Shown: positions 6,414 to 19,703 of the stretch, one piece after another
Layout: every line of letters begins with the position of its first letter
How positions within the stretch are numbered: position 1 is the first letter of the stretch
The notes under the pieces: model-generated
The model's input: the letters and a program-made list of their open reading frames with translations, nothing else
The model's database searches: none
What the model was told of the DNA's origin: nothing
Made by a program: the position numbers and the translations under genes
NCBI GenBank assembly: GCA_027621555.1
Contig: JAQCBJ010000005.1
Location: 1-64,000, forward strand
Length of the DNA stretch: 64,000 nt
From: Bacteroidota bacterium
Lineage (GTDB): Bacteria; Bacteroidota; Bacteroidia; Flavobacteriales_D; Sanyastnellaceae
Direction of reading: 5' to 3'

Positions 6414-7307
6414 ATGTCGATGTGGAAGCACCGTTTGCGCGTCACGGTTTTTGACGAAAGTTCGTACTCGGAGATCCGCGTGTTCCGGGGTTCCCCTCGG
6501 CGCTGGGCGGGGTGGTTGTTGGGCCTTTTGGCGGCGCTGGTTCTCGCGACCTACCTGCTGGTGGCCCAAACCCCGTTGCGCGAATGGGTCGTCCCTGGAT
6601 ACGTCGCCGAACAAACGAGGCAAGACATGCGAGAGACACGGTGGTTGGCCGACAGTTTATCCCGTGCACTGGGCCAGCAGGAGCAAGCCTTGCTTGCCTT
6701 GCGGTACGCCTTGGTCGGTGACACAGCTGCGCTCTCCTTTCTCACGCGGTCGGAGTCGCCAACACCACTTGATTCGGCGGAAAGTTGGGGTTTAGATTCG
6801 TTGGTGTTTCAGGCTGGGTCAAGCGAAATGACCCTTCGCGAAACTGTGGAGGAGGAAGACCGCTTTGCCTTGCAGCGGCAAAGCGCAAGCAGCACAAAAG
6901 CGATGACCGGCTTCACCTACCCCCCGGTTGTGGGTGGGGTTTCCGACGGGATGAACGCGGGAATTGGGCATTTGGGTGTGGATTTGGTGGCGGCGGCCGG
7001 CACCGCCATCCAAGCGGTGGACGATGGGTCGGTCTTGTTCAGCTCCTACACCGTCGAAACAGGGTACACCCTTCTCATCCAGCACCGCGGCGAACGTGTT
7101 TCCGTCTACAAACACTGCTCCTCGTTGTTGAAACAGCAAGGCGACCTTGTTGCGGGAGGCGAAGCCATTGGTTTGATGGGCAACACGGGCGAATTGACCA
7201 CTGGTCCTCACTTGCATTTTGAGTGGTGGGTGCGTGGACGCGCTGTGGACCCGACCCCTTGGTTGGGTCGCACCACCATGTGGGAAGAGTTGGTCCCTGG
7301 AAATTAG
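6414..7307 (+). CDS. M23 family (LytM-type) peptidoglycan endopeptidase
   Basis: The 297-residue protein has a short cytoplasmic N-terminus, one membrane helix at about residues 30-50, a coiled/linker region, and a C-terminal LytM domain. The zinc ligands of the M23 family are visible: HLGVD (HxxxD) and GPHLHFEWW (HxH). It is expected to cleave peptide cross-links in the periplasm or to regulate amidases. The ATG at 6414 is preferred because the sequence upstream in this frame belongs to the opposite-strand porW region. The gene ends in a 3-nt convergent overlap with the pfkB-family gene. Confidence 0.92.
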   Translation: MSMWKHRLRVTVFDESSYSEIRVFRGSPRRWAGWLLGLLAALVLATYLLVAQTPLREWVVPGYVAEQTRQDMRETRWLADSLSRALGQQEQALLALRYALVGDTAALSFLTRSESPTPLDSAESWGLDSLVFQAGSSEMTLRETVEEEDRFALQRQSASSTKAMTGFTYPPVVGGVSDGMNAGIGHLGVDLVAAAGTAIQAVDDGSVLFSSYTVETGYTLLIQHRGERVSVYKHCSSLLKQQGDLVAGGEAIGLMGNTGELTTGPHLHFEWWVRGRAVDPTPWLGRTTMWEELVPGN

Positions 7308-13076: not shown

Positions 13077-14630
13077 TCAGTTGCCTCGGAGTTTGCCGTC
13101 GCGTCGTTTGTCCACCTTCGAACCATCCACCTTACGCAGCTTGCCGTATCGGTAAATGTACTCGTGCATCAAAGAACCCTCGTTATCGTACAACCGCCAT
13201 TTCTTGTGTTTGGCGCCACTTTCAAACTTCCCTTCGGTTTCCAACACGCCGTTGGGGTGCCAGGTGCGGTGTTTTCCCTCAGGTTGTCCAAAAGAGAATT
13301 CTCCTTGAAATTGCTTTTTCCCGTTGCCGTACGTGTGGGTCCATTCTCCGTCTTTTTGGCCCAAGAGGTAATTCCCCTCTTCGAGGTGATCGTGAATGTG
13401 AATGCGCCAAGGGCCCTCTTTTTGGCCATCCTCATACAAACCTTCCACCAGTGCGTTGCCCGCGGTATCCAGCTCGAGAAACTCCCCACTCAATGTTCCC
13501 CTTGTGTAGCGCTCTTTCCGATGAACCTTCCCGCCCGGGTACCACCACGTCCAAAGCCCGTGCACAGATCCCCGCACATACCGGCCTTGCTGTTCTTTCT
13601 CTCCATCTTCTCGATAAAACACCCAATCGCCGTCCCGTTCGTCCTCCACATACATGCCTTCCGCGCGCAAGGTTCCGTTGGGCCAATATTCCTTCCATGG
13701 GCCATTTCTGCGGCCGTCTTTTTGGGTGATGCCTTCCGCCACCAAAACATCCTGGTCAAACACCGATCCACCCACCACTTCTCCGGCGGCATCGAACCTG
13801 CGACTGACCCCTTGTTTCACCCCATCGACGTAAGTGATGGTCTCAGCCAACGTGCCGTCCTCTCTTCGAACCTCTTGAAGCTCCACCACCGGTGCACGGT
13901 TTTCGTCCGGCAACACTTCTTCACCGTGCCGGTATTCCACCACGCGAACCACCGACCCTCTGGCGTCGAAAAACTGAAACACCCCGTGTCGCAAATCGTC
14001 CAGGTAGAATCCAGATTCCACCACGCGGCCTGACGAATGAAACACCTTCCAGGGTCCAGTTTTCAATCCACGGTCGTCGAACCGATTGAAGGATTCTGAA
14101 GCCACCAACCTGTCGTTTTTGTACCACCGGTACCCGTGCGGTTCTTGTGACAAATTGTACATCGTGGCCTTGCCTTCACGACGGTCGTTCTCGTAAAACA
14201 GTTCCAAACTCAAGGATCCATCCGCCCGAAACGATTTAGCCATCCCGTTCTTCACCCCGTTCTCCCAGAACACCGAGTCTGTCAATGCACCCTCTTCCCA
14301 AAGGGTTTGAACCCCCTGGCGTACGCCTTCCTCAAACGTCGCTGTTTCCTGGAGAACTCCGCCGGCGTAAAAGCGCCAAACCCCATGAGGCTCGTTGTTT
14401 TTTCGTTCCCCTTCGCTTAACGTTTCGCCACGATCCGAATAGCTCGTCCAAATCCCCGTAGGCAACCCAGCCACAAAACACCCTTCGCTGGCAACCGACC
14501 CGTTCTCATGCAAAAATTGCTTCCATTCACACCCCTTCAAATCAGGTTGACACCAACCTCCCAGTGCTTTTCCACACACCAGAACTAAAATGAATTTTTT
14601 TAAAAAAGAAGGAGTTGTAGTTGTAGGCAT
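13077..14630 (-). CDS. Exported YwqK/MORN-like repeat protein
   Basis: From the ATG at 14630 the product is 517 residues, with a signal peptide ending near GGWCQ. About fifteen imperfect repeats of roughly 23 residues follow, each with the pattern NG-x-L-x-x-EG-x(5)-G-x(2)-GxWxxY/F. This pattern is typical of MORN-like or YwqK-family antitoxin-annotated repeats in Bacteroidota. The repeats form an extended beta structure, and the biochemical role is unknown. Open sequence continues to 15056, but the signal peptide fixes the start. The gene is followed after 3 nt by a histidine kinase, so a sensory or envelope link is possible. Confidence 0.85.
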   Translation of the reverse strand: MPTTTTPSFLKKFILVLVCGKALGGWCQPDLKGCEWKQFLHENGSVASEGCFVAGLPTGIWTSYSDRGETLSEGERKNNEPHGVWRFYAGGVLQETATFEEGVRQGVQTLWEEGALTDSVFWENGVKNGMAKSFRADGSLSLELFYENDRREGKATMYNLSQEPHGYRWYKNDRLVASESFNRFDDRGLKTGPWKVFHSSGRVVESGFYLDDLRHGVFQFFDARGSVVRVVEYRHGEEVLPDENRAPVVELQEVRREDGTLAETITYVDGVKQGVSRRFDAAGEVVGGSVFDQDVLVAEGITQKDGRRNGPWKEYWPNGTLRAEGMYVEDERDGDWVFYREDGEKEQQGRYVRGSVHGLWTWWYPGGKVHRKERYTRGTLSGEFLELDTAGNALVEGLYEDGQKEGPWRIHIHDHLEEGNYLLGQKDGEWTHTYGNGKKQFQGEFSFGQPEGKHRTWHPNGVLETEGKFESGAKHKKWRLYDNEGSLMHEYIYRYGKLRKVDGSKVDKRRDGKLRGN

Positions 14631-14973
14631 GTGGATGAGTGGGAAAACTTGAGATAGAGGAGGGTTGCTTTTATCAATGTTCACCACCTGTCCACAAAGG
14701 TCGTTTTGAATTGTGGAAGATAAGAGGTTGAGGATGAGTACTCCGATGGGCTTTTGCACATGTTGTGGATGCGAAACCCCAAGAACAAAAACACGTTTTC
14801 CCAGTCGTTCAAAACCTGGGTTTTTTCGCGCATAACACGTTGGTAAATGACCAGCAAAAGATTTGGAATGGTGGCGCAAGAGATGGCTTAGGGGAATGTG
14901 TGCGAGAATCCAAAAAAAGTTCTTCTTCGCTTCCAACAGGTTGATGAACGGAAGATGTGGGTATTTTCGTGAT
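14631..14973. other. 343-bp divergent intergenic region with clustered TGTGGA/TCCACA motifs
   Basis: No gene is visible here. The stretch is more AT-rich than its surroundings. It contains TGTGGATGA (14630-14638), CTGTCCACA (14688-14696), TGTGGAAGA (14712-14720) and TGTGGATGC (14764-14772), each one or two mismatches from the DnaA box TTATCCACA/TGTGGATAA. A T-rich run lies at 14819-14826, and the rpiB promoter is at its right end. It could be a regulatory region for the two divergent genes or a degenerate origin-like region. Neither is proven. Confidence 0.4.
14941..14969 (+). promoter_or_regulatory. Promoter-like element for rpiB
   Basis: TTG at 14941-14943, an 18-nt spacer, and TATTTTCG at 14962-14969 (one mismatch to TAnnTTTG) lie only 4 nt before the rpiB ATG, implying a leaderless or nearly leaderless transcript. 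Confidence 0.45.
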
Positions 14974-16983
14974 ATGATTGTCAGCATTGGATGCGACCAT
15001 GCAGGACCTGAGTTAAAGGCCCGCATAGCACAACACCTCGAAGCCCAAGGACACACGACGATGAACCGCGGAACGGACGGTCCAGAAAGTGTGGATTACC
15101 CAGATCATGCCCACGCTGTGGCTGAGGATGTGTCATCGGAACACGCGAAACTTGGTATTTTGATTTGCGGATCCGCCAACGGGGTTGCGATGACCGCCAA
15201 CAAACACAGCAACGTACGGGCTGCCATCGCTTGGACTCCGGAGATTGCTGAACTCGCTCGGCAGCACAACAACGCCAACATTCTTTGCATTCCCGCACGC
15301 TTCGTGTCAGAGCAAACGGCCCTCGCGATGGTGGATGCGTTTTTCTCTTCTGAATTCGAAGGGGGACGACATGCACGTCGTGTAGGCAAAATTGCCTGTG
15401 CGATGCTTGCGATGTTTACGTTGGTGATTTCCGGTTGGTCTCAACGGCAAATGACCGACGCGGGATTCACGCAGTCGGTCCGACTGGATGAAAAGCAATT
15501 GAGGGTGCACCTGAGCATTTTGGCCAGCGATGGGTTTGAAGGACGCGAAACAGGTGAGGTGGGACAACGCAAGGCTGCTGCGTATTTGGAAGCGTATTAC
15601 GCCTCGTTGGGTTTTGAGCCGTGCAACGACGGTTCGTTCTTCCAAATGGTGCCCATGGTCAACACGCAAATTCGAGGCGGCCAAGTGGTGTTGTTGTCAG
15701 ACACGTTGCATTTGGCAGAAGGGTTTTTGGTGTACCCAGGTTTGGAGACCACAGAATTGGAAGACCAAAAACTCACTTTCGTAGGCCACGGCATCCAAGC
15801 CGACGGTTGGAATGACTACAAGAAATACAAAGGAGGCGGTGTGGTGGTCATGCGCGACGGGGAACCGTTGAACGCAGAGGGCAGGTCCCTGGTGTCTTCC
15901 GACGGAGAACCGACAGACTGGGCGGATGGACTTTCTAAGAAACGTGAGCTTGCACAATCCCTGGGTGCAGAAGCGTTGGTGGTCATTTTGGAAGACGATG
16001 CATTTGACATGCGGAAGAGCCGCATGAAGCGTTGGATGTTGCGCAAATCCACCACGCTGGACCGCGAAAAGGAGGGTCAGGGCACCAACCTTCCAACGCT
16101 TTTTGTGAATGCCACCACAGCGGATGCTTGGCTAACTGGAAGCAAAGTTGGATCGCTCTCAGGCCACACATCCCAAATTCAATCTGGAAAACCCACCAAG
16201 GCGGCCACGTTGAGCCCGGTTTTTTCCATGAACATCGACCAATTGCGCTACTCGTTTGAGGCCGAAAACGTGCTGGCGTTTTTGGAAGGAAGCGACCCTG
16301 AATTGAAGGACGAGGTGATTGTGGTCACGTCCCATTACGACCACGTCGGAATCATCGATGGTGAAATCCACAACGGAGCGGATGACGACGGATCGGGCAC
16401 CGTGACGGTGATGGAGTTGGCGCGGCAGTTTGTCAAACTTGGTGAAGACAAGAATTTCCGTCCACGTCGAAGCGTGCTGTTCATGAACGTGGTTGGAGAA
16501 GAAAAGGGATTGCTGGGAAGCGAATACTACGCAGACCACCCTGTGTTTCCATTGGAGAAAACGGTCGCTAATTTGAACATTGATATGATCGGTCGAACCG
16601 ACGAAGCGCACACTGAAGACCCACGGTACGTATACTTGATAGGTGCAGACAAACTGAGCTCAAAACTTCATGAGGTGAGCGAATACTGCAACGATACATA
16701 CACCGATTTGGCGCTGGATTACACCTACAATGCGCCAGATGATCCCAACCGTTTTTACTACCGCAGCGATCACTACAACTTCGCCAAGAACAACATTCCT
16801 GTGATTTTCTACTTCACAGGGGTGCACGAAGACTACCACAAACCTGGAGACGACGCGGACAAAATCATGTACCCGAAGATGGCAGAAATCGGCAAACTCG
16901 TCTTTCACACAGCCTGGCATCTCGCCAACATGGACGAGCGCTTGGAGGTGGATCGCGTCAATGATTTCCCAACCGACCGCTGA
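14974..16983 (+). CDS. rpiB: Ribose-5-phosphate isomerase B joined in frame to an M28-family peptidase
   Basis: One uninterrupted 669-codon frame encodes two proteins' worth of sequence. Residues 1-142 are a complete RpiB, with an N-terminal IGCDHAG motif, catalytic Cys65 in LICGSANGVAMTANK, and the usual end FEGGRHARRVGKI. RpiB interconverts ribose-5-P and ribulose-5-P in the cytoplasm. Residues from about 143 look like a signal peptide (hydrophobic run ending GWSQ), followed by a PA-like insert and an M28 zinc aminopeptidase with HYDH, GADDDGSG, GEEKGLLGS and NIDMIGR metal motifs. No stop separates them. Either this is a true fusion, or the peptidase starts internally at 15403. The compartment conflict makes internal initiation likely. 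Confidence 0.85.
   Translation: MIVSIGCDHAGPELKARIAQHLEAQGHTTMNRGTDGPESVDYPDHAHAVAEDVSSEHAKLGILICGSANGVAMTANKHSNVRAAIAWTPEIAELARQHNNANILCIPARFVSEQTALAMVDAFFSSEFEGGRHARRVGKIACAMLAMFTLVISGWSQRQMTDAGFTQSVRLDEKQLRVHLSILASDGFEGRETGEVGQRKAAAYLEAYYASLGFEPCNDGSFFQMVPMVNTQIRGGQVVLLSDTLHLAEGFLVYPGLETTELEDQKLTFVGHGIQADGWNDYKKYKGGGVVVMRDGEPLNAEGRSLVSSDGEPTDWADGLSKKRELAQSLGAEALVVILEDDAFDMRKSRMKRWMLRKSTTLDREKEGQGTNLPTLFVNATTADAWLTGSKVGSLSGHTSQIQSGKPTKAATLSPVFSMNIDQLRYSFEAENVLAFLEGSDPELKDEVIVVTSHYDHVGIIDGEIHNGADDDGSGTVTVMELARQFVKLGEDKNFRPRRSVLFMNVVGEEKGLLGSEYYADHPVFPLEKTVANLNIDMIGRTDEAHTEDPRYVYLIGADKLSSKLHEVSEYCNDTYTDLALDYTYNAPDDPNRFYYRSDHYNFAKNNIPVIFYFTGVHEDYHKPGDDADKIMYPKMAEIGKLVFHTAWHLANMDERLEVDRVNDFPTDR
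15403..16983 (+). other. Possible separate M28 peptidase reading frame (internal start)
   Basis: The ATG at 15403 would give a 526-residue exported M28 metallopeptidase whose first 14 residues are the hydrophobic core of a signal peptide ending WSQ. It lacks basic residues after the Met. The Arg/Lys needed for a normal n-region (RRVGK) lies just upstream, inside the RpiB end, so an alternative start codon slightly upstream is also conceivable. This entry marks the peptidase portion, not an additional gene. Confidence 0.5.
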
Positions 16984-18115
16984 TTCGGTTCAGCTCACTT
17001 CGGAAAAAGGCGCGCTCAACCTCGAACCCCTCTCCTGTTGCAGGTCCATTGAAACCTTGATGGATGGTGGGTGAACCCTTCAGGGGCCAAAAAATCGTCG
17101 TAGGAAAAGACCTCACCGTGTCCACGGCGGAGATCACGCTCGCGGCTTCCGATTTACTCGCTTTGCCTCCCAGCAAGACCTCCCAAGGCAATTCCATCTC
17201 TGTACGGAAAGCCTCTAAGCGTGCCAAAGCATCAGCACCCGTGCCGCGCTCAAAAGCCAAGCTGAGAAACTGAACCTCAGGGTAGTCGCTCGCAAACTCC
17301 CGGAGCAGCCGTGCTTCATCCATGCAATTGGGGCACCACGTGCCCATGATGTCCAAAACCAACCCCCTTTTCCCCTCGTTTTCCAACAAGGAGCTGGTCC
17401 AGCGCAACGTGTCTCCATTCGCCCGAATCCCAGAGAACGTCAACTCCTTGGATGTCGCGGCTTGCGTGGCGCTCTTCCATGCTGTGGGCATGGACGCGAG
17501 GCGTCGGCCTGAGAAGGTTGTGTGATAATGCGTTCCAGATAAGAATTGACCATTCACCAAGGAATCTCCCTTCATTTCGGCCTGGAATCGGAACAAATGT
17601 GCTCCGTCGAAGTTGTTGAAAACAAGTGTGTTATATGTTTTTTTTCCGACGAGGTACCTGTAATCTCCCGTCGGGGTGCTGACAGTCGCCCACACCGAAT
17701 CATCCCGCGTTGCCATCACGAGCAACCCTTCCGTGGTTTCCCAGTAGGAAGTGTCGGTGTTTTCAGAACGGTGGGGCTTCAACACCTCTTCTTTGACCGG
17801 CTTCAAGGTGAGTGGCACCCTGTAATCTCCACTCCTCAGCGAATCGGTCCAGAAGCCGCTCCACTCCCTTCCCTTCCACTCGCCTTTCCAAGACCCCTTA
17901 AACACAGGAACCTCATAGACCTCCTGTCCTTGGGGCCTCAATCGAATGCGCTCCGATCCGTTGCAGACCACCCAGGTGGAGTCGACCCGCTCAAGAAGGA
18001 CCACAGTCGAGGGCTCGGTTCCAAAAACCGCCTCATAAAGCAGGGGTTTAGGCTCATTGTGTGTGCATGAAACCAAAGCAAGGAGGAGGGCCACAAAACA
18101 CCAAGAGCAGCTCAT
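16958..18115 (-). CDS. TlpA-like thioredoxin-fold lipoprotein
   Basis: The 385-residue protein starts with a lipoprotein signal (lipobox ALVSC, Cys17). A beta-rich N-terminal domain of about 200 residues with no recognised motif follows, and then a C-terminal TlpA/AhpC-type thioredoxin domain with the active-site motif WCPNC at about residues 260-264. Such proteins act on the periplasmic side as thiol-disulfide reductases for cytochrome maturation or oxidative repair. The start at 18115 is chosen for the lipobox; an in-frame ATG lies at 18151. The gene converges on the M28 frame with a 26-nt overlap. Confidence 0.88.
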   Translation of the reverse strand: MSCSWCFVALLLALVSCTHNEPKPLLYEAVFGTEPSTVVLLERVDSTWVVCNGSERIRLRPQGQEVYEVPVFKGSWKGEWKGREWSGFWTDSLRSGDYRVPLTLKPVKEEVLKPHRSENTDTSYWETTEGLLVMATRDDSVWATVSTPTGDYRYLVGKKTYNTLVFNNFDGAHLFRFQAEMKGDSLVNGQFLSGTHYHTTFSGRRLASMPTAWKSATQAATSKELTFSGIRANGDTLRWTSSLLENEGKRGLVLDIMGTWCPNCMDEARLLREFASDYPEVQFLSLAFERGTGADALARLEAFRTEMELPWEVLLGGKASKSEAASVISAVDTVRSFPTTIFWPLKGSPTIHQGFNGPATGEGFEVERAFFRSELNRISGRLGNH

Positions 18116-18173
18116 GGCTGCTCTTGGACGTGGATAAGCGCGTGCAATCATGCGCCCAAAGTAACACGGATTA

Positions 18174-19703
18174 TCAGAGGTCGAACTTGATGCCTTGTGC
18201 GAGCGGCAAGTCGGATCCGTAGTTGATTGTGTTGGTCTGACGGCGCATGTATGCCTTCCAGGCATCCGAGCCGGATTCACGGCCCCCACCCGTTTCTTTC
18301 TCGCCCCCAAAGGCTCCGCCAATTTCAGCGCCAGAGGTGCCGATGTTGACGTTGGCGATTCCACAATCCGAGCCGGCACAAGACAGGAACGCTTCAGCCT
18401 CCCGAACGTTGTTGGTCATGATGGCAGAGGACAAACCCTGCACCACGCCATTCTGCATGGCAATGGCCTCGTCGAGCGTGTCGTACTTCATCAAGTACAA
18501 GATGGGCGCGAACGTCTCGTGCTGAACGATTTCCAAGTCGTTGGTGACTTCGGCGATGGCGGGCTTGACGTAGCAACCGCTTTCGTAACCCTCACCTTCC
18601 AGACGTCCTCCAGGAACAAGAATGCTTCCCCCCTGCTCCACCACAGCCTGCAGCGCTCGCTCGTACTGCCCCACGGCATCGGTGTCGATGAGCGGCCCGA
18701 CGTGGTTGTTTTCGTCAAGCGGGTCCCCAATGCGGATTTGCTTGTACGCTTGGGTCAGCTGATCACGCACCTTGTCGTAAATGCTCGTGTGAATGATCAG
18801 GCGGCGCGTCGACGTGCAACGCTGTCCACACGTTCCTACGGCGCCAAACACCGTGGCTGGAATGACCATCTTGAGGTCCGCTTCAGGCGTGATGATGATT
18901 GCGTTGTTGCCACCCAACTCCAGGAGCGATCGCCCGAGGCGAGCGGCTACGGCTTGGGCCACAATCTTGCCCATGCGAATGGATCCTGTGGCAGAAACGA
19001 GAGGCACACGGCGGTCGGCCGTCATCAACTCTCCAACCTTGTAATCTCCATTGACAATGCAGCTCACACCCGCAGGAAGGTTTTTTGCAGACGCGACTTC
19101 GTTCCAAATATGTTGGCAAGCCAACGAGCACAGGGGCGATTTTTCTGAAGGCTTCCAAACGCAAACGTCACCCGCGATCCATGCGAGCGCCGTGTTCCAA
19201 CACCACACAGCCACAGGGAAGTTGAAGGCACTGATGATGCCAACAACCCCAAGGGGGTGGTATTGTTCGTACATGCGGTGGTTGGGGCGCTCAGAGTGCA
19301 TGGTCAAGCCGTACAACTGACGGCTTTGGCCCACAGCGAAGTCGCAGATGTCGATCATCTCTTGCACCTCACCAAGACCCTCTTGGTAGCTCTTGCCCAT
19401 TTCATAAGAAACAAGGGCGCCGAGGCTCTCTTTTTTGGCCCGGAGAGCGTCTCCGTATTGACGCACCACTTCTCCACGTTGTGGAGCGGTCCACTTGCGC
19501 CATTCTACAAAAGCATCGGAGGCCGCGGTCATCACGCGCTCGTAATCGTCCGACGTGGCGGTGCTCAACGACGCAATGCGTTTTCCGTCCACAGGGGAGT
19601 TGCTGTCAATGCTTGCCCCAGAGCCAAAGGCTTCCGCGCCAATCATGACGCCTGGGTTTTGGTCTTGAATGCCGAGGTCGGCAAGGATGTTTTGAATGTT
19701 CAT
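18174..19703 (-). CDS. ALDH7-type aldehyde dehydrogenase (alpha-aminoadipic semialdehyde / piperidine-6-carboxylate dehydrogenase)
   Basis: The 509-residue protein has the aldehyde dehydrogenase fold, with the NAD-site FNFPVAVW segment, catalytic base Glu262 in LELGGNN, and catalytic Cys296 in GTCGQRCTSTRR. The GQRCTSTRR context and the C-terminal GGEKETGGGRESGSDAWK stretch are typical of family 7 enzymes. These oxidise 2-aminoadipate semialdehyde in lysine breakdown, so that substrate is inferred from family. It lies 19 nt after mnmG on the same strand but has its own -7 element. Confidence 0.9.
   Translation of the reverse strand: MNIQNILADLGIQDQNPGVMIGAEAFGSGASIDSNSPVDGKRIASLSTATSDDYERVMTAASDAFVEWRKWTAPQRGEVVRQYGDALRAKKESLGALVSYEMGKSYQEGLGEVQEMIDICDFAVGQSRQLYGLTMHSERPNHRMYEQYHPLGVVGIISAFNFPVAVWCWNTALAWIAGDVCVWKPSEKSPLCSLACQHIWNEVASAKNLPAGVSCIVNGDYKVGELMTADRRVPLVSATGSIRMGKIVAQAVAARLGRSLLELGGNNAIIITPEADLKMVIPATVFGAVGTCGQRCTSTRRLIIHTSIYDKVRDQLTQAYKQIRIGDPLDENNHVGPLIDTDAVGQYERALQAVVEQGGSILVPGGRLEGEGYESGCYVKPAIAEVTNDLEIVQHETFAPILYLMKYDTLDEAIAMQNGVVQGLSSAIMTNNVREAEAFLSCAGSDCGIANVNIGTSGAEIGGAFGGEKETGGGRESGSDAWKAYMRRQTNTINYGSDLPLAQGIKFDL

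Follow-up and report, generated by a model that had tools for sequence, protein, structure and literature searches.

The window, a stretch of 64,000 nucleotides at the start of contig JAQCBJ010000005.1 in a draft genome of 129 contigs, contains on its forward strand a reading frame of 669 codons plus stop (14974-16983), here called rpiB-M28. The frame starts with an ATG at 14974, ends with a TGA at 16981-16983 and has no in-frame stops in between. The original prediction, namely that RpiB, a signal-peptide-like segment and a full M28 peptidase share one uninterrupted frame, was confirmed by matches of the 2 parts to the Pfam families PF02502 and PF04389, and the single frame was found to be kept in 43 genomes. 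All features described below are located on the forward strand. The RpiB domain covers residues 3 to 140 (14980-15393; E 1.3e-53, the sole PF02502 match in the genome), and the RpiB part extends to FEGGRHARRVGKI. Its C-terminus, RHARRVGK (15367-15390), is by its sequence the proposed n-region of an internal signal peptide, and is followed by ACAMLAMFTLVISGWS (residues 141-156, 15394-15441), which comprises the hydrophobic core and the c-region. Directly behind RpiB, residues 140 to 153 make up the 14-residue window with the highest hydrophobicity in the whole protein. Within this segment, the ATG codon of Met144 (15403-15405), which starts 15 nucleotides past the K codon of the KI pair at the RpiB end, sits where the M28 gene formerly had its start codon. 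Cleavage between S156 and Q157 would leave Gln157 (15442-15444) as the N-terminal residue of the released peptidase. The proposed mature M28 aminopeptidase (15442-16980) is supported by profile, sequence and fold matches, and contains the PF04389 match at 16267-16908 and a weak PA-like match at 15805-16131. The long frames on either side in the mechanical list of open reading frames (13077-15056 and 16958-18379) are both on the reverse strand, and the rpiB-M28 gene may therefore stand alone.

The front part matched the Pfam model LacAB_rpiB (PF02502) over its entire length (model positions 1-138 of 138, E 2e-52), with a score of 177 bits against a cut-off of 24.7. Among the NCBIfam models, TIGR00689 scored above its cut-off, as did NF004051 for the RpiB/LacA/LacB family (165 bits against 135). 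The score for the RpiB equivalog TIGR01120 was just under the cut-off (136.7 against 138.65 bits), and the scores for the LacA and LacB equivalogs were far under theirs. The match in sequence to the PDB was to RpiB structures (1o1x, E 8.5e-35). Residues Cys65, Ser67, His98, Arg132, and Arg136, which we take to form the RpiB active site, were invariant across 17 aligned fusions. A search for rpiA (PF06026) gave no match in any of the 114 genomes of the family to which the window belongs; run as a control on 14 known genomes, the search was positive in 8. The family thus probably has no ribose-5-phosphate isomerase of known type other than RpiB, bearing in mind that draft genomes may hide genes, and this RpiB is probably needed, since rpiA was found in none of the 114 genomes. 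A second RpiB match was present in 2 of the 43 genomes with the fusion, G104 and G113. In G104, a 387-residue frame on the reverse strand (L218, G104:C39:4800-7600) has the second RpiB-like domain at its C-terminal end, and its front by eye resembles a sugar nucleotidyltransferase.

The back part matched Peptidase_M28 (PF04389) at residues 432 to 645 (E 2.7e-42, 145 bits against a cut-off of 21.3), and weak matches below the Pfam cut-offs were obtained for PA, Nicastrin, and M20. We take His454, Asp471, Glu510, Asp537, and His622 to be the metal ligands of the M28 domain, and all 5 were invariant across the 17 aligned fusions. The best PDB matches in sequence were to the zinc aminopeptidases 6hc6 (E 8.8e-11) and 2ek8 (E 1.4e-10), and a fold search with the peptidase ranked 2ek8, BSAP (6hc6/6hc7), and PaAP first, and also gave GCPII and the transferrin receptor as matches. 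The 3 top-ranking proteins thus resemble the peptidase part in fold, 2 of them (2ek8, 6hc6) also in sequence; they are listed as aminopeptidases of about 377 to 455 residues and, unlike the fusion, lack a preceding RpiB domain. The structure model had a mean pLDDT of 77.9, with values below 50 at residues 132-150 and 152-163, such that the junction is modeled with uncertainty. Both enzymes are predicted to be active.

PF02502 matches were identified in 102 of the 114 genomes of the family. The comparison of the junction in close relatives that had been suggested as a check showed the fusion in 43 of these genomes, and 2 separate, adjacent genes in the same order in the other 59. The fused loci were 44 in total, with 2 in G113, and were distributed over 6 genera (10 in g1, 1 in g7, 2 in g14, 19 in g18, 2 in g20, and 10 in g21). 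Separate genes were found at every RpiB-bearing locus in 15 other genera and at 14 of the 16 loci in g20. The count excludes 3 loci (in G001, G017, and G092) in which M28 was present and RpiB was not in view. In the genus of the window, 10 of 11 genomes had a full-length match free of stop codons; the eleventh, G001, had the C-terminal part only, at the extreme end of a contig. Relatives over a range of 81% to about 51% identity shared the open frame. It was noted that the second fused copy in G113, a member of g21, clustered with g18 in the tree (L043, G113:C23:4400-8400), which could reflect contamination of the draft or transfer.

A survey of 399 genomes of the order placed all full-length, stop-free matches, among the 150 or so matches listed, within the family of the window. 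None of 20 loci examined in the same order outside the family was fused; rpiB was a separate gene upstream of M28 in 19 of them, and RpiB was absent from the stretch examined in the remaining locus. One candidate in the survey, a 744-residue open frame in G179, was rejected upon direct reading, which revealed 2 genes with a stop in between. The best 80 named loci comprised 4 fusions, all of which are part of the family count (G004, G063, G064, G075), 34 loci with a separate rpiB gene upstream on the same strand at a gap of at most about 1 kb, from Flavobacteriales, Sphingobacteriales, Chitinophagales, and Saprospirales, and 42 loci with no rpiB gene within 1.5 kb. The location of rpiB upstream of M28 is thus common far outside the family, as seen in 19 of the 20 loci from the order and 34 of the best 80 named loci. 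The separate pairs of other Bacteroidota encode the same 2 proteins in the same order and on the same strand, mostly overlapping or only a few bases apart, and those within the family share the cleavage motif of the fusions. They differ in having 2 reading frames, and in that the peptidase has a start and a basic n-region to itself. In several relatives from family f3 (L118, L121, L128, L129, L130, L132, and L137), the front of the M28 protein by eye resembles a lipoprotein signal with a terminal Cys rather than a Q-rule signal peptide.

The junction in the fusions retained most features of an exported protein. A small residue followed by Gln, [AGST]Q, was present in all 44 fusions, as located with a pattern that requires the Q, and [AGSTC]Q occurred 11 to 21 residues after KI in 44 of 44, compared with 0.078 per 11-residue window in the protein body. 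In 43 of the 44 fusions, moreover, no other 14-residue window of the protein was as hydrophobic as the junction; since these fusions form only 2 clades, statistics by row overstate their independence. The stretch from KI to the motif was 12 to 20 residues long in the fusions (median 17) and 14 to 24 residues in the separate, cleavable signal peptides (median 19). The sequence of the segment differed widely among genera, but the core and the cleavage motif were retained. A Gln residue directly after the signal peptide is described as the Q-rule of Bacteroidetes in excerpts from 2 studies (PMC5837995, PMC10653852), and the features of a Q-rule substrate for signal peptidase I were all found here: basic residues, at the end of RpiB, a core, and a small residue followed by Gln.

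The feature that had changed was the location of the basic residues. Of the 59 separate peptidases, 56 had a Lys or Arg among their first 8 residues, and in the other 3 (G012, G042, and G044) our rule had chosen a later Met, with a Lys or Arg present when counted from the first Met. In the fusions, a basic residue between KI and the cleavage motif was observed in 1 of 44 only, near the motif (Fisher p 3e-24 for 1/44 against 56/59, with relatedness ignored and slightly different stretches compared). The RpiB end, RHxRRVxK, provided 3 to 4 basic residues between RH and KI in all 44 fusions. Because the core and the motif persist, the basic residues are gone from the peptidase side and RHxRRVxK is basic, the fusions have kept the export features except the basic n-region, which RpiB can supply. 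The proposal that the Arg and Lys residues of the RpiB end serve as n-region is therefore well supported. A lipoprotein signal at KIAC was considered and rejected, as the Cys precedes the hydrophobic core. Elsewhere in the window, a scan for comparable junctions picked out a 517-codon frame on the forward strand at 6507, which has a hydrophobic segment about 250 codons in, followed by AQTPLREW, and probably encodes an ordinary anchored protein.

The separate pairs suggest how the fusion could have arisen. In 37 of the 59, the rpiB stop shares bases with an ATG in frame with M28, and 29 of these overlaps have the form ATGA; the first candidate ATG lies at most 60 nucleotides from the rpiB stop in all 59. 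In the typical ATGA overlap of the separate relatives, the ATG starts 14 nucleotides past the K codon of KI, whereas in 8 of 10 loci in the genus of the window it starts 15 nucleotides past this codon and is in frame. In this genus, the fusion would therefore be explained if the stretch upstream of the old start had gained a net single nucleotide. A quick tree of 103 rows, inferred from RpiB and the mature M28 protein with the junction omitted, required 2 changes between the fused and the separate state. A careful tree of 43 rows chosen from these 103, for which the outgroup was picked by hand with the quick tree already known, recovered the main fused clade with 98/96 support and placed the fused pair G091 and G094 within g20 with 100/100 support; a single clade of all fusions was rejected (p-AU 2.3e-6). 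The ATGA overlap was present in all 14 separate g20 genes and in 15 of the 45 other separate genes. Since the separate genes in g20 and elsewhere share this overlap, a single fusion that was later exactly reversed is less likely than 2 independent fusions. The tree is compatible with one fusion and a later fission, but such a fission would need to restore both the ATGA overlap and the basic n-region. The data support an evolutionary loss of the gene boundary between rpiB and M28, and the fusion probably arose twice from an adjacent, often overlapping gene pair.

We consider it probable that the gene encodes a single precursor, in which signal peptidase I cleaves an internal signal peptide, with export and cleavage predicted from conserved sequence features. 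RpiB would be translated first and remain in the cytoplasm. The hydrophobic segment would, together with the RHxRRVxK n-region, act as an internal Sec signal peptide in an N-in/C-out orientation and carry the M28 domain into the periplasm, where signal peptidase I would cut between S156 and Q157 according to the Q-rule of Bacteroidota. The released peptidase would begin with Gln, probably cyclized to pyroglutamate. RpiB would retain about 16 residues as a hydrophobic tail, which may anchor the isomerase to the inner membrane or might be trimmed later by an intramembrane protease. The genome encodes a signal peptidase I as well as an M50 membrane protease. A later release of RpiB is conceivable by analogy, since in Escherichia coli leftover signal peptides are cleared by RseP, and most substrates of S2P proteases span the membrane once in type II orientation (PMC10470546). 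The original prediction had called a cytoplasmic isomerase in front of a secretion signal biologically awkward; this arrangement is indeed what the gene encodes, but the adjective seems too strong, in that an N-in/C-out orientation would place both domains properly.

An alternative with 2 products from one frame is unlikely: initiation at 15403 would yield a separate peptidase, and the full-length protein would supply RpiB. It draws on the codon at the old start position, which is start-capable in all 10 complete loci of the genus (8 ATG, 1 TTG, and 1 GTG), such that a second product is possible in this genus. However, no start-codon column was conserved across the 44 fusions. In a stretch that began 20 codons ahead of KI and ended 12 residues short of the motif, some in-frame ATG was found in 27 of the 44; the other 17 had no ATG, and 4 had no ATG, GTG, or TTG. 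A product from 15403 would moreover carry a signal peptide with no basic residue ahead of the motif, in contrast to the 56 of 59 separate signal peptides that have one. Of the idea that the rpiB stop was lost with internal initiation at 15403, the loss of the boundary was supported, whereas such initiation found no support when all fusions were considered. Internal initiation from a GTG codon at the RRV valine was also rejected, with GTG at the codon background in the fusions (19 of 42, 17.1 expected). In the separate genes, GTG at the RRVxKI valine was rarer than expected (6 of 55 against 19.8, a post hoc comparison that ignores relatedness), which perhaps spares the M28 start from competition by a nearby start codon. 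This contrast, likewise post hoc, points toward loss of the old start in the fusions.

We judge it similarly improbable that the segment is an uncleaved signal anchor that leaves the peptidase linked to RpiB across the inner membrane. The N-in/C-out orientation expected from a basic flank on the inside would suit such a tether, as would the appearance in the fold search of GCPII and the transferrin receptor, both type II membrane proteins that carry this fold on the outside. Yet a released product fits the [AGST]Q motif of all 44 fusions better, and the length of the stretch is like that of the separate cleavable signal peptides; the tethered protein first envisaged is possible, with the weight on cleavage. 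That the peptidase is not exported any more and the hydrophobic segment is a relic is very unlikely, considering that core and motif were retained despite the wide variation in sequence between genera. A sequencing or assembly error, which the draft state of the genome might suggest, is next to impossible in view of 44 fused loci across 43 assemblies, and the frame stays open in relatives over the whole range of identities, which dispenses with that proposal. Programmed frameshifting or read-through was dismissed as unneeded in an open frame.

Returning to the cleaved precursor, a broader reading, for which we see arguments of about equal weight for and against, is that the gene pair twice became a polyprotein: what looks like the sole isomerase would serve as n-region and carrier, signal peptidase I would split the chain, RpiB would be tethered to the membrane, and the products would be made 1:1. 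A single conserved frame over both proteins, as in a polyprotein, was observed at 44 loci in 43 genomes. In Bradyrhizobium, the cytochrome b/c1 precursor FbcH contains an internal signal peptide and is cleaved into 2 mature proteins, the first of which is a membrane protein, unlike RpiB, a soluble metabolic enzyme. According to an excerpt from PMC5402940, signal peptidase cleaves the core-E1 junction of hepatitis C virus (HCV), and signal-peptide peptidase then frees the first protein. On that account, core-E1 is a close parallel to the fusion in that the chain of a cytosolic protein continues into the signal peptide of an exported one, and differs in that it belongs to a virus and the ER membrane, with cleavage shown in HCV and predicted for rpiB-M28. 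Among the open-licence PMC papers listed, we found no direct precedent for internal signal peptides in bacteria, and no report of an RpiB-peptidase fusion, judging by titles and the beginnings of abstracts.

If the proposed processing is correct, free-living bacteria synthesize a cytosolic enzyme that they probably need and an exported one in a single chain, and a signal peptide functions about 140 residues from the N-terminus. Programs that search for signal peptides at the N-terminus only would overlook such exported proteins. With separate genes and 2 fused clades, the family provides a natural series in which to ask what an internal signal peptide requires, whether a folded domain can lend it a basic n-region, and what happens to a cytosolic enzyme that carries a signal-peptide tail.
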